Positions 20,316 through 24,946 of a stretch of 64,000 bases of DNA are shown one piece after another. Both the position numbers and the translations under genes were made by a program. How positions within the stretch are numbered: the stretch's first letter is position 1; each line of letters starts with the position of its first letter. The DNA is from a virus. The notes beneath the pieces were generated by a model, which saw only the letters and a list, made by a program, of their open reading frames with translations, was not told the origin of the DNA and did not search any database. The DNA is taken from the IMG/VR virus record IMGVR_UViG_3300035670_000019, positions 1-64,000 of that record; one strand, 5' to 3'.

Positions 20316-20789
20316 ATGAATATATTTTATATTAATTCTGATCCTATTATCGCCGCTAGAGAATTAGCTGATGATCATATTCGTAAAATGCAAATTGAAT
20401 CTGCTCAAATGTGTTGTACAGCACATTGGGAAACAGGTGGTACTGCTCCATATAAACGAGCTCATAAAAACCATCCTTCAACAATTTGGACAAGACAATC
20501 AATACAACATTATAGATGGTTAGTAAAACATGGATTAGAAATTTGTAATGAATTTGAAAAACGTTATGGTAAAACACATGCTACTAAACAAGTATTGTTA
20601 TGGTGTAAAGACAATGAACCAAATTTACCTAATAATGGATTTATAGATCCACCACAATGTATGCCTGATGAATTTAGAAAGGAAAACACTATAGAAGCAT
20701 ATAAGAATTTTTATATTAATGATAAAATAAAAGTTAAAAAATTAGATTGGAAAAAATTAAATAATAAACCTGAATGGATAAACAAATAG
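20316..20789 (+). CDS. Conserved phage protein of unknown function
   Basis: 157 residues from the ATG at 20316; an upstream in-frame TTG at 20259 would start inside the hairpin. The sequence runs MNIFYINSDPIIAARELADD, then KMQIESAQMCCTAHW, HKNHPSTIWTRQS and FIDPPQCMPDEFRK. This is a very common unnamed protein in aquatic T4-like phages; some relatives are labelled pyrimidine-dimer glycosylase-like, which I cannot confirm. The many conserved His, Cys and Trp suggest an enzyme or metal site. The end overlaps the oxidoreductase by 16 bases. Confidence 0.55.
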   Translation: MNIFYINSDPIIAARELADDHIRKMQIESAQMCCTAHWETGGTAPYKRAHKNHPSTIWTRQSIQHYRWLVKHGLEICNEFEKRYGKTHATKQVLLWCKDNEPNLPNNGFIDPPQCMPDEFRKENTIEAYKNFYINDKIKVKKLDWKKLNNKPEWINK

Positions 20790-22069
20790 TAATAGTTGGT
20801 GCAGGAGTAGCTGGTATAAACGCAGCTACTAAATTAGTTGATAATGGTTACCCTGGTAACTTAATCACTATTATAGACAAAGGTAATGATCCACATAACC
20901 GCTTACCTGAAGAAGTAATGACAGGTATGTTAGGCGCGGGAGGATGGAGTGATGGTAAATTAACATACCATACTGCAATTGGAGGTGTATTATCAAAATA
21001 CTGTGGTGAAGAGAAAGCAATGGAATTGATGGATCAAGTTATTAATAACTTTAGACGTTTTCACCCTAAACCAGAAGAAATCTTTTGCTCTGATCCACAA
21101 GCAGAACCTGAATTCATTAAACCATACTTTGGATTACGTTTATTCCCAGTATGGCATATTGGTTCAAATTACCTACATGAGATTGCTAAAACATGGTATC
21201 AGTATTTGCTAAACAAAGGTGTTAGATTTGAATGGAATACTGAGGTTAAAAATATATACTTTGATCGTAGTAGAATCTACACATCCAATGCCTATATGCA
21301 TTATGATGAACTTATATTTGCAGTAGGCAAATCAGGTATTGACTTTGCTCAAAAATTATCAGATGAGTATAAATTACCAACTGAACCAAAATCAGTACAA
21401 ATTGGAGTACGTTTTGAAGCACCACAAAAATACTTCCAAAAATTAATTGATATTAGCTATGATTTTAAACTATATCAAAAGTTTGATAATGTATCATTAA
21501 GATCATTCTGTACTAATAATAACGCAGCTTACGTCGCAGTAGAGGAAACATATGGTGATATTACTTATAATGGTCACGCTAAGAAAGGTGAGGAATTTAG
21601 AAATGATATGACCAATTTTGGTATTTTGATGGAAATCAAAGGTATTGATAATCCATTTGAATGGTCAAGAGATGTAGTAAATAAATTGCAAATTGATGGA
21701 AAAGGATTATATTACTCACCTAACCAAACCCGCAAACCAGGATTAACATCTGAGGGTGCTACAGTATCAGCTCATCAAGTAGATGATTATTCATTAGATG
21801 ATATTAGAAATGCAATGAGTGGTTATTTCTCATATATTGAAACATTTATTGAACAAATGAATGAAGTATTTCAATTTGGTGATGATTGGGGGATATATGT
21901 TCCTGAAGTAAAATATGTCTCCGCAGAGCCTCTTGTTAATTATAATAATCTAAGTCTCACAACATATAATAATATTTACTTTGCTGGAGACGCATTATCA
22001 GCTAGAGGTATAACAGTAGCAGGTAGTCAAGGTATTTACATTGCTGAAGGTATTTTAAAAAAAATGTAA
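20774..22069 (+). CDS. FAD-dependent oxidoreductase (COG2509-like)
   Basis: 431 residues. A dinucleotide-binding fold starts at residue 5 with G9-A-G-V-A-G14, and a second FAD motif at the C-terminus reads IYFAGDALSARGITVAG. Between them are stretches recalling the uncharacterised FAD dehydrogenases of COG2509: LGAGGWSDGKLTYHTAIGG, HIGSNYLHEIAKTW, SVQIGVRFEAPQ and LRSFCTNNNAAYV. The substrate is unknown. Such enzymes are rare in phages and could modify a host tRNA, quinone or redox pathway. Its last 40 codons are matched, without gaps, by a remnant at 23085-23207, about 1 kb downstream. Confidence 0.8.
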   Translation: MDKQIVIVGAGVAGINAATKLVDNGYPGNLITIIDKGNDPHNRLPEEVMTGMLGAGGWSDGKLTYHTAIGGVLSKYCGEEKAMELMDQVINNFRRFHPKPEEIFCSDPQAEPEFIKPYFGLRLFPVWHIGSNYLHEIAKTWYQYLLNKGVRFEWNTEVKNIYFDRSRIYTSNAYMHYDELIFAVGKSGIDFAQKLSDEYKLPTEPKSVQIGVRFEAPQKYFQKLIDISYDFKLYQKFDNVSLRSFCTNNNAAYVAVEETYGDITYNGHAKKGEEFRNDMTNFGILMEIKGIDNPFEWSRDVVNKLQIDGKGLYYSPNQTRKPGLTSEGATVSAHQVDDYSLDDIRNAMSGYFSYIETFIEQMNEVFQFGDDWGIYVPEVKYVSAEPLVNYNNLSLTTYNNIYFAGDALSARGITVAGSQGIYIAEGILKKM

Positions 22070-22087
22070 GTATTTAATTTCTGGTGA

Positions 22088-22095
22088 TATTTATA
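22088..22095 (+). promoter_or_regulatory. Candidate late promoter element TATTTATA
   Basis: Directly before the endonuclease; only three bases separate it from the ATG at 22099, so if it is a promoter the transcript would begin inside the gene or leaderless. Weaker case than others. Confidence 0.25.
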
Positions 22096-22098
22096 ATT

Positions 22099-22710
22099 AT
22101 GAAATATTATGTATATCATTGGATTAGAAAAGATACTAATGAACCTTTTTATGTAGGAAAAGGAACAGGTAATAGAGCAGGTCATAAAAAATCAAATAAA
22201 GGGTGGAAAAATATTACTTCTAAAGTTGAATGCTTTTGGGAAATTATTAAGTATTTTGATGATGAACAAACCGCTTATCTGTATGAACATACTCTTATTG
22301 AAGAATATAAAAAATTGGGGTATAAGATAATTAATCAAACTGAATATTCTAAAGGAGGAGGTACTTGGGCATATACAGATGAAGTAAAACAACGTCAAAG
22401 TAAAAATAGAAAAGGTAAAGGTTTAGGGCCTCGAAGTGAAGAATGGAAGCAAAATATTAGTAAAGCAAACAAAGGTAGAAATATATTATGGGCTAATAAA
22501 ATAGGGGATGCCCTTAGAGGAAAACCTAAAAATTATTTAAGTCATCATAAACCAATACTACAATATGATCTTCAAAATAATCTACTTAATGAATACCAAT
22601 CAGCCCAAGAAGCAGGTAAACATCTAAATAAATCAGGCAATAGTATAGCGGACTGTGCCGCAGGTCGTCAAAAAACAGCTTACGGATTTATTTGGAAATA
22701 TAAAGAATAA
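22099..22710 (+). CDS. GIY-YIG homing-type endonuclease with NUMOD repeats
   Basis: 203 residues from the ATG at 22099. Residues 3-26 hold the nuclease module (YYVYHWIR and FYVGKGTGNR with the catalytic Arg), and a Glu in YLYEHTLIEEY is the likely metal ligand. Residues 96-130 (SKNRKGKGLGPRSEEWKQNI, SKANKGR) match NUMOD3-type DNA-binding repeats, and the C-terminus (PILQYDLQNNLLNEYQSAQE to AYGFIWKYK) matches NUMOD1. This is the standard build of free-standing phage homing endonucleases. It sits between the intact oxidoreductase and a leftover 3' copy of it, as expected if it drove the rearrangement. Confidence 0.88.
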   Translation: MKYYVYHWIRKDTNEPFYVGKGTGNRAGHKKSNKGWKNITSKVECFWEIIKYFDDEQTAYLYEHTLIEEYKKLGYKIINQTEYSKGGGTWAYTDEVKQRQSKNRKGKGLGPRSEEWKQNISKANKGRNILWANKIGDALRGKPKNYLSHHKPILQYDLQNNLLNEYQSAQEAGKHLNKSGNSIADCAAGRQKTAYGFIWKYKE

Positions 22711-22716
22711 TTCATA

Positions 22717-22724
22717 TATTTATA
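22717..22724 (+). promoter_or_regulatory. Candidate late promoter element TATTTATA
   Basis: Thirteen bases before the ATG at 22738, directly after the endonuclease stop. Confidence 0.4.
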
Positions 22725-22737
22725 CTAAAATATAACT

Positions 22738-23085
22738 ATGAAAAAATCAGAATTACAACAAATTATTAAAGAAGAGATAAATAAATTTAGACTTAAACCT
22801 GGAGATCCGGGGTACACTGATAATGGTATAGCAAATAACTATGCATCTGATTTAACTAATCGTTTATTCTATCAAAAAAATTCCTCTCCTCTACAGTGCG
22901 TAACTAATTGGGGTAATGAATTAGAAAAAGATCCATTAATAGCTGGTAGACTTACTAAAAGTCAAATAGAAGATTTAAAAAAAGAAGCAATAGCTCTTGT
23001 AGGGATTACTAAAGGAACTAGTAGGTATAAACAAGTATTAAAAGATAAAATACTTAAAGTTTTAAAAGGTGAAAAAATAAGATAA
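22738..23085 (+). CDS. Class A leader protein, hypothetical
   Basis: 115 residues. It starts MKKSELQQIIKEEINK, nearly the same leader as at 1648, but continues FRLKPGDPG instead of the usual L-x-E, so the cleavage site is degenerate or absent. The body contains CVTNWGNELEKDPLIAGR and a Lys-rich C-terminus, with no known domain. It lies with the endonuclease in the roughly 1,015-base segment between the two oxidoreductase 3' ends and may have travelled with it. Own promoter-like octamer upstream. Confidence 0.55.
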   Translation: MKKSELQQIIKEEINKFRLKPGDPGYTDNGIANNYASDLTNRLFYQKNSSPLQCVTNWGNELEKDPLIAGRLTKSQIEDLKKEAIALVGITKGTSRYKQVLKDKILKVLKGEKIR

Positions 23086-23207
23086 ATTTGTCATTAAGTG
23101 AATTCCCAAATGTACACTTTGTAGGTGATGCTTTATCTGCTCGTGGTATTACAGTTAGTGGCGCTCAAGGAATATATGTTTCTGAATATTTATTGAAAAA
23201 TAAATAA
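23085..23207 (+). pseudogene. Remnant of oxidoreductase 3' end (40 codons)
   Basis: The frame beginning at 23085 reads NLSLSEFPNVHFVGDALSAR, then GITVSGAQGIYVSEYLLKNK and a TAA at 23205-23207. It aligns without gaps, over exactly 40 codons plus stop, to the end of the FAD oxidoreductase (21947-22069), with 25 of 40 residues identical by hand count. There is no start codon, so it is not an independent gene. Its stop overlaps the next ATG (TAATG), the coupling expected if the ancestral oxidoreductase ended here before about 1 kb with the endonuclease came between. Confidence 0.82.
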
Positions 23208-23671
23208 TGAAATTATCACAACTAAAACAAATCATTAAAGAGGAAATACATAAAGTATTGAATGAAGCTTTTGTTAATGATAAAGGAGAACTTGAAGATT
23301 TTAATTTTGAAAATGATTTAGTAGTAAAATATTTACCTGAATATTATCAAAATGAAAAACGTTATAAATTTTTCTATTGTGAAAAAGGATTAGCAGATGA
23401 CTTTGATACTAAGGATGGTAAAAAAGTAAAATATATTGTAGGATATTCACATTTTTTAGATTTACCTAATGATAAAGAATGGATTTTAGATATGCCTGAC
23501 CCAAAAACTGAATTAAATATAGCTTCAGGTTTAGCACTTGACCCAGATAGTTGTTATGATGCAGAAATGGATGTGATAGGATATATATATTCTAAAAATG
23601 GAAAAGATATTGAAACAGAATATGAAGAAGAGGAATTATGGGAGGCTTTTTATGATTCATTAGGAGCTTAA
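23207..23671 (+). CDS. Class A leader protein, hypothetical acidic
   Basis: 154 residues. It has the clearest class A leader in the window: MKLSQLKQIIKEEIHKVLNE with L-N-E ending at residue 20, followed by Ala. The body is acidic and folded-looking (KRYKFFYCEKGLADDFDTKD, then KYIVGYSHFLDLPNDKEWIL) and ends in a Glu-rich helix. No known domain. The start shares a base with the stop of the oxidoreductase remnant. A strong terminator lies 36 bases after the stop. Confidence 0.6.
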   Translation: MKLSQLKQIIKEEIHKVLNEAFVNDKGELEDFNFENDLVVKYLPEYYQNEKRYKFFYCEKGLADDFDTKDGKKVKYIVGYSHFLDLPNDKEWILDMPDPKTELNIASGLALDPDSCYDAEMDVIGYIYSKNGKDIETEYEEEELWEAFYDSLGA

Positions 23672-23707
23672 AATTTGATAAGTTTATACATAACCTTTAA
23701 TGTTTAG

Positions 23708-23731
23708 GGCTTGGCTTTGCCAAGCCTTTTT
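23708..23731 (+). terminator. Rho-independent terminator
   Basis: GGCTTGGC-TTT-GCCAAGCC, a perfect eight-base stem followed by five T. It closes the accessory block. Confidence 0.85.
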
Positions 23732-23744
23732 GCTATATTCACTA

Positions 23745-23752
23745 TATAAATA
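23745..23752 (+). promoter_or_regulatory. Candidate promoter element TATAAATA
   Basis: TATAAATA, the classic T4 late promoter core, nine bases before the ATG at 23762 and just after a terminator. The short distance implies a very short leader. Confidence 0.45.
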
Positions 23753-23761
23753 AAAAACATA

Positions 23762-24946
23762 ATGAATATACACGAGGACTTATCAAAAATTGGCAAGCAG
23801 TTAATGCTTAGTGAACCATTCTATGGTGTATTCTTATCTACTCTTAATAAAGTAGTTAGAAAAGATGTACCAACAGCTGGTGTTTGTTTACAAGGTATTA
23901 ATTATCAATTAGCAGTTAATGAAGAGTTTTGGAACTCACTACCAGGAGATAAACCAAAAATAGGACTACTCAAACATGAGTTGCTCCATATTTGCTTTAA
24001 TCATCTTCTTGATAGAGATGACTACCCAGATCAAGAATTACATAATGTAGCAGCTGATATTGAAATCAATCAATATATAGCTGAGGAGTATTATCCATCT
24101 AAAGATCTTCTATTACCAAGTTCATATCCTGAACTGAATTTGCCTTTAAAAGCTGGTACTAAAGTATATTATGGTTTGTTAAAACAAGCTTTAGAAAGTG
24201 GAGCTAGTCCAAAACTACAACAATTAATGGATGGTTTAAAAGGTGAAGGTCTACATCCAACTTGGAGTGAGTTTGATGGTTTAAGTGAAGCTGATGCTAA
24301 ACTAGCCAAATCACAACTTGAACATCAAATTAAAGAAATACTTAAAAGTCAATCAGATAAGGGTAGAGGTTTTGTTCCATCTGAGTTAGAAAGTTTTATA
24401 GATGATATATTAGCTGAAAGTGAACCATCATATGATTGGAGATCGTATTTTAGAAAATTTGCAGGTACATCAACTCGAGTCTATACTAAAAAAACAAGAC
24501 GTAAACTAAACAAACGTTTCCAAGAAAATCCAGCCTTAAAAATTAAAACTAAAAAGAATATACTTGTAGGCATTGATACATCAGGTTCAGTTCTTAATGA
24601 AGATTTAGCTAGATTTTTTGCTGAGATACATCATATGTACAAAACTGGAGTAACAATCACTGTAGCTGAAGGTGACGCTGCTATTCATAATGTATGGGAA
24701 TATAAAGGCGAGATGCCTAATTCTGTTACAGGTAGAGGCGGTACAAACATGAATCCGTTTATCCATTATTTTAATGAACATAAAGAATATAATAGTTTAA
24801 TTATATTAACTGATGGATTCATAGGTGAAAATAAAATTAAATCATTCAAACCAACTTTAATGGTCATAACACCGAATGGTGAAAGTTTAGATGTAATTAA
24901 AGAAAACGGATGGGGCAACACTATTAAAATGAATTTGGCCTCCTAA
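23762..24946 (+). CDS. Metallopeptidase-like / VWA-domain protein (DUF2201 type), partner of MoxR
   Basis: 394 residues. The N-terminal domain has LLKHELLHICFNH with H72-E-L-L-H76, a zinc-binding HExxH helix. The C-terminal domain begins VGIDTSGSV, where D272-x-S274-x-S276 is the metal-ion-dependent adhesion site of a von Willebrand A fold, later supported by RGGTNM and ILTDGF. This order is that of DUF2201 proteins, which are usually encoded beside a MoxR AAA+ ATPase, as here. Such pairs are thought to act as chaperone or metal-insertion machines on a target protein; the phage target is unknown. The gene starts a new transcription unit. Confidence 0.82.
   Translation: MNIHEDLSKIGKQLMLSEPFYGVFLSTLNKVVRKDVPTAGVCLQGINYQLAVNEEFWNSLPGDKPKIGLLKHELLHICFNHLLDRDDYPDQELHNVAADIEINQYIAEEYYPSKDLLLPSSYPELNLPLKAGTKVYYGLLKQALESGASPKLQQLMDGLKGEGLHPTWSEFDGLSEADAKLAKSQLEHQIKEILKSQSDKGRGFVPSELESFIDDILAESEPSYDWRSYFRKFAGTSTRVYTKKTRRKLNKRFQENPALKIKTKKNILVGIDTSGSVLNEDLARFFAEIHHMYKTGVTITVAEGDAAIHNVWEYKGEMPNSVTGRGGTNMNPFIHYFNEHKEYNSLIILTDGFIGENKIKSFKPTLMVITPNGESLDVIKENGWGNTIKMNLAS

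Follow-up and report, generated by a model that had tools for sequence, protein, structure and literature searches.

Why should the 3′ end of a viral oxidoreductase gene be present twice, with an endonuclease gene between the copies? The window, meaning here the whole 64,000-nt stretch of DNA that was analysed, is part of a 163,030-base IMG/VR record, and the parts of the locus (20774–23761) are all on its + strand. The end of the FAD oxidoreductase gene (21947–22069) aligns without gaps to 23085–23207, with 25 of 40 amino acids and 75 of 123 nucleotides identical and a TAA stop codon at the 3′ end of each. A search of the full record with the complete oxidoreductase retrieved the second copy at 23073–23201 (E = 1.5e-11, 40.6 bits). 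Chance similarity of two tails is far exceeded, and the duplication, first proposed from the 40-codon match, is confirmed as real. The original prediction also gave the surroundings correctly: the stop codon of the downstream copy (23205–23207) overlaps the start (ATG) of the gene that follows at 23207, as TAATG, and the 1015 bases between the copies (22070–23084) contain an endonuclease gene and a leader-type gene.

Which copy belonged to the gene originally can be judged from its relatives (designated here by L numbers). Eighty are among the IMG/VR matches listed, and hundreds more exist. All are metagenome contigs, picked by similarity; one set was fetched by means of the endonuclease itself, so no locus frequencies are claimed. 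Nearly all of the 80 are without the endonuclease, and most have tails nearer the downstream copy than the live (upstream) one: at the amino acid level, the downstream copy is about 80–92% identical to most uninterrupted relatives, against 62% to the live tail. For L001, the closest among the matches listed, tail identity is 0.89 to the downstream copy and 0.62 to the live tail. The downstream copy is homologous to native tails over 23086–23207, which extends from the second base of codon 392 to the stop codon, with 97 of 105 bases identical to L004 and 96 of 105 to L001. L002 represents an empty site: its uninterrupted oxidoreductase, with a native tail, is followed directly by a terminator-like stretch and then a DUF2201 gene (91% identity). 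A near-identical copy of this stretch precedes the DUF2201 gene in the window (23688–23761), giving the two a common right flank. The gene that overlaps the downstream copy (23207–23671) has homologues 67–70% identical; in L095 and L096 a 70% homologue directly follows a native-tailed oxidoreductase, which is the arrangement that had been suggested as a check. The downstream copy is the native tail of the gene, ancestral and stranded as the original prediction held.

The live gene, in turn, is a chimera of native codons 1–381 and foreign codons 382–431. The native part (20774–21916) is identical to uninterrupted L001 at 1071 of 1143 bases (94%), and is 91% identical to L002; in 20-codon blocks, identity to L001 is mostly 87–98% through codon 380 and 53–70% thereafter. 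Codons 382–431 plus the stop (21917–22069) are instead 83–92% identical in DNA sequence to four endonuclease-bearing loci (L005, L012, L058, and L083), which are only 70–83% identical to the body of the gene. Since the first 381 codons are L001-like and the rest resembles endonuclease carriers only, the tail alone was replaced. The proposal that the divergent tail came with the endonuclease module is therefore borne out, and the accompanying suggestion that the upstream part of the gene had been replaced as well is not. Replacement of the whole gene was likewise rejected, the body being native. The breakpoint at codon 381/382 is sharp, with the left switch lying within a stretch of ~17 bases common to the window and L005. 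About ten native codons, 382–391, are absent from live gene and remnant alike. Codons 141–180 and 301–360 of the oxidoreductase also diverge sharply among close relatives, which suggests exchange of other internal segments, or fast evolution.

The foreign tail goes together with the endonuclease at other loci as well. A degenerate DNA pattern for the peptide KYVSAEPLVNY was found in only five IMG/VR contigs: four have an endonuclease of this family directly 3′ of the gene, and the fifth (L089) has a scar, described below. Measured against the nearest endonuclease-free relative, identity fell by 0.18 between body and tail at 16 endonuclease loci vs. 0.05 at 84 others (n = 100; Mann-Whitney p = 2.7e-8, to be taken merely as a guide because the loci are related). 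Presence of the endonuclease changes 10 times on a tree of gene bodies, five of these changes being forced by well-supported branches, and three times on a tree of tails. In the tail tree, a single group (SH-aLRT 96) takes in 14 endonuclease-linked tails, with which the live tail of the window clusters, and leaves out three endonuclease loci (L110, L114, L116); all five stranded tails recognized so far are among the native tails, that of the window beside L004, L074, and L001. The tree is based on 141 columns, so its inner order is unreliable.

This split phylogeny bears on an alternative in which the gene underwent a local tandem duplication of its 3′ end, the copies then diverged, and an endonuclease happened to insert between them. 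Both tails do have the same length and reading frame, as such a duplication would give, but they fall in separate clades with separate sets of relatives; the breakpoint is sharp; and the live tail is closer to endonuclease-carrying phages than the body is. Simple tandem duplication was rejected on the split phylogeny of the copies, and we regard it as extremely improbable.

Pfam places the oxidoreductase among flavoproteins of the HI0933/VP0956 kind, and its nearest solved fold is 3nlc; the structure model is confident nearly to the C-terminus (mean pLDDT 89.5). The ORF (20774–22069) is complete and not divided into two polypeptides. According to the model, the exchange point is just past a strand at residues 373–380, and the exchanged part would comprise the last strand (401–403), a GDALSARGIT motif that, from general knowledge of flavoproteins, we take to contact FAD, and a C-terminal helix (413–430). 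The cassette would thus restore the last strand, the FAD-binding GD motif, and the C-terminal helix, which is proposed to be why the gene stays functional.

The live tail is followed by a short intergenic stretch (22070–22098; 29 of 29 bases identical to L005) and then by the endonuclease gene (22099–22710, 203 amino acids), a separate ORF 3′ of the oxidoreductase stop codon. Its product matches Pfam NUMOD1 (5.9e-8) and NUMOD3, as well as PHROG 314, “homing endonuclease” (E = 8.8e-16). Pfam GIY-YIG (PF01541) was below threshold, and a profile search matched UvrC weakly (E = 0.05); the structure model, of low confidence in its middle, resembles the UvrC GIY-YIG domain (Foldseek TMt 0.59) joined to a DNA-binding tail like that of I-HmuI. 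Relatives 92–95% identical are in the equivalent position in L083 and L005. The gene product accordingly has the catalytic fold and appended DNA-binding region of a GIY-YIG homing endonuclease and is free-standing, outside any intron or intein. It has spread horizontally to one site across genomes, and from the boundaries and linked divergent tails it is predicted to cut endonuclease-free alleles while sparing its own. Few nucleotide positions divide linked from native tails cleanly enough to be diagnostic of resistance, so no recognition site is claimed.

Among endonucleases at the 3′ site, C-terminal regions are ~83% identical in DNA sequence and catalytic halves only ~30% alike; those at the 5′ and middle sites described below carry other C-terminal regions. 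The DNA-binding part therefore tracks the site. Domain swapping of this kind is known for other phage endonucleases (PMC10448857). The record itself has no second copy of the endonuclease, only a distantly related sequence at 128101–128481 that starts in an HNH-like way. This HNH-like endonuclease with a related NUMOD tail (G000:C1:127768–128487; L219:2269–2988) lies between two genes and overlaps a phosphoesterase-like gene at its start; no duplication of a gene end was seen beside it.

Completing the insert is a leader-type gene (22738–23085, 115 amino acids), for which no relative was found beyond the leader. Leaders of this sort open many otherwise unrelated genes, at 1648, 16912, 19155, 22738, and 23207 in the window (and 18486) and at many other loci; they are of types like MKKSELKQIIKEEIxKVLNE or MNKEFLKMQKLAGIITE, and are reminiscent of capsid-targeting leaders. 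Passenger genes adjoining endonucleases often bear one.

The interval could conceivably be a self-splicing intron, or the remnant an alternative 3′ exon, with both tails serving one gene. The remnant frame is open and in register with the codon where homology begins. Even at E = 1, however, no Rfam intron family was found in 20500–24500, just a weak match to an unrelated sRNA; the live gene is whole as it stands; most of the similar loci differ in passenger DNA; and native codons 382–391 are missing from both pieces. With no catalytic intron RNA recognized by Rfam, a group I intron or alternative exon was rejected, and we consider such an explanation exceedingly unlikely.

We think it highly probable that the arrangement arose by intronless homing with one-sided joining. 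In a co-infecting relative, the free-standing GIY-YIG endonuclease would cut the oxidoreductase gene in its 3′ end, near codons 382–392, a site consistent with the earlier proposal of a cut near codon 391. The left broken end, within the gene body, would pair with the donor's oxidoreductase, and copying would proceed rightward through the donor's divergent 3′ end (presumably uncleavable), the endonuclease, and the passenger gene. Where the right side of the donor differs, there would be no common downstream sequence, so that the copied strand must be joined illegitimately to the right broken end and the old tail would be left as a stranded remnant. With a next gene common to donor and recipient, clean replacement would be expected, and no remnant. 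This pathway is supported by the chimeric gene, by the way the foreign tail is linked to the endonuclease, and by the native origin of the remnant, as well as by repeated cases and a 5′ mirror case. The left boundary at codon 381/382 and right boundaries at codons 387–400 in various loci leave a few codons between them, which a cut in that stretch plus some trimming would produce. Because the passenger gene is an orphan and the cassette donor was not identified, the right junction of the window cannot be read from both parents.

The repeated cases are at five loci, the window included, where a native tail is stranded behind a swapped one. The codon at which homology of the remnant begins varies: it is 387 for L061, 392 for the window, about 391/392 for both L089 and L097, and about 400 for L119; passenger DNA is unlike in most. 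In L061 the body is 98% identical to L212 (codons 180–300) and the tail 60%. L097 retains the native SPEP residues, and its left boundary is therefore further right. L089 is identical to the window at 44 of 44 bases, from the stop codon through the first four codons of the endonuclease, and the remainder of the endonuclease is missing: it has since lost the gene, and these four codons are the scar that is left. No remnant is present at most endonuclease-bearing loci, so a stranded tail is one outcome and not the rule; L005, for example, is a clean replacement with a downstream region 92.5% identical to that of empty L001.

The gene has been entered elsewhere as well. In L053 (3708–5080), 22 native codons run into foreign sequence; next comes an endonuclease that has another DNA-binding type, and behind it a complete gene whose 5′ end differs. 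The native 5′ remnant is identical to L034 at 66 of 66 bases; this locus mirrors the arrangement in the window, but at the 5′ end of the gene. At three further loci (L096:1756–3926, L158:2957–5357, and L180:1746–4183) the gene is split at ~codon 170 by another GIY-YIG/NUMOD endonuclease, and the second half has a new start codon. Three sites in one gene have therefore been used separately.

These loci also allow two other explanations to be weighed. As all the data are metagenome contigs, and the left switch in the window is within ~17 bases common with L005, an assembler might have joined two co-occurring phage strains, with and without the endonuclease. The same architecture, though, is present on five contigs from different samples, with unlike junctions; the endonuclease-loss scar in L089 is precise; and the right junction has no extended homology. 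An assembly chimera is accordingly very improbable. The remnant might alternatively be a conserved small gene by itself: its frame is free of stop codons in five of five cases, and in the window there is a TTG two bases past the stop of the leader gene. Starts and upstream sequence are unlike in most remnants, however; the copy in the window lacks an ATG; and the remnants are scattered over the native tail tree beside the full-length genes of relatives, not as one family. We consider a separate small gene to be very unlikely.

Within the preferred account of intronless homing, the stranded tail might itself have a role, as the right homology arm of a self-contained, cargo-carrying element made up of replacement tail, endonuclease, and passenger. 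Such an element would land inside the coding sequence at codon 391/392 and leave the gene unbroken. Bearing on this are L089 and L097, which have a common passenger gene (85% identical in DNA sequence) and an identical passenger–remnant junction. Their remnants are each nearer the native tails of other phages than one another, and the downstream genes differ, with a kinase gene further on 68% identical. For the present, a right-arm function is a tentative idea and on balance rather doubtful.

Together these loci form a natural series, from empty through invaded (with or without a stranded tail) to endonuclease lost, which suggests how a free-standing homing endonuclease can enter a genome with homology on one side only. 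They also provide a specific explanation of why large phages have chimeric gene ends and orphan passenger genes, and a gene with three separately used sites is a test bed for how DNA-binding modules set the site. L220 and L221, two named cellular contigs in which the oxidoreductase has a close relative, are Flavobacteriaceae/Flavobacteriales metagenome bins, a hint as to host group.

Prophages e14 and phage 21 integrate into the 3′ end of icd, bringing a replacement gene end and displacing the old one; they do so with an integrase and attachment sites, neither of which was seen at this locus. In the Aeh1 nrdA/mobE system the gene becomes two polypeptides, which resembles the splitting at ~codon 170 in L096, L158, and L180 and differs from the 3′-site insertion, where the oxidoreductase is whole. 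As in Seg/Mob intronless homing in T4, a free-standing GIY-YIG endonuclease lies beside the gene it should cut, and flanking sequence is co-converted; T4 repair is homologous into both flanks, and the part of that account drawn on here describes no stranded gene end (PMC2988022). For homing of the T4 td intron, one-sided illegitimate break repair is established: there is homology on only one side, the junctions are at microhomologies, and the other end is degraded (Parker et al., 1999, cited in PMC2988022). The td case is a laboratory one with a group I intron, whereas one-sided repair here, and its polarity, are inferred from natural genomes.

The same architecture is published for fungal mitochondrial mobile ORFs with C-terminal duplication, in atp6 of Allomyces macrogynus and in atp6, atp9, cox2, and nad3 of Glomus sp. 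(PMC3630166). There too an endonuclease ORF (LAGLIDADG or GIY-YIG) brings in a foreign 3′ end, so that the gene becomes a hybrid, and the native tail is stranded downstream; native tails are 91–98% and inserted tails 64–81% identical to a close relative (PMC3630166). The phage locus likewise has an in-frame foreign 3′ end followed by the endonuclease, and a stranded tail nearest the recipient's relatives. For elements of the fungal type, the hybrid would be expected to be transcribed and the native tail to be silent in at least some genes. Unlike the mitochondrial cases, the phage loci include passenger genes, a mirror case at the 5′ end, a scar of endonuclease loss, and swapped catalytic halves. 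No report of a gene-end duplication of this kind in phages was found in the open-access literature. Elements of this sort thus arrive with replacement gene ends of their own, in phages just as in the mitochondria of fungi, and the phage case extends the known architecture to a free-standing homing endonuclease with a replacement gene end, intermediates, and a 5′ counterpart.
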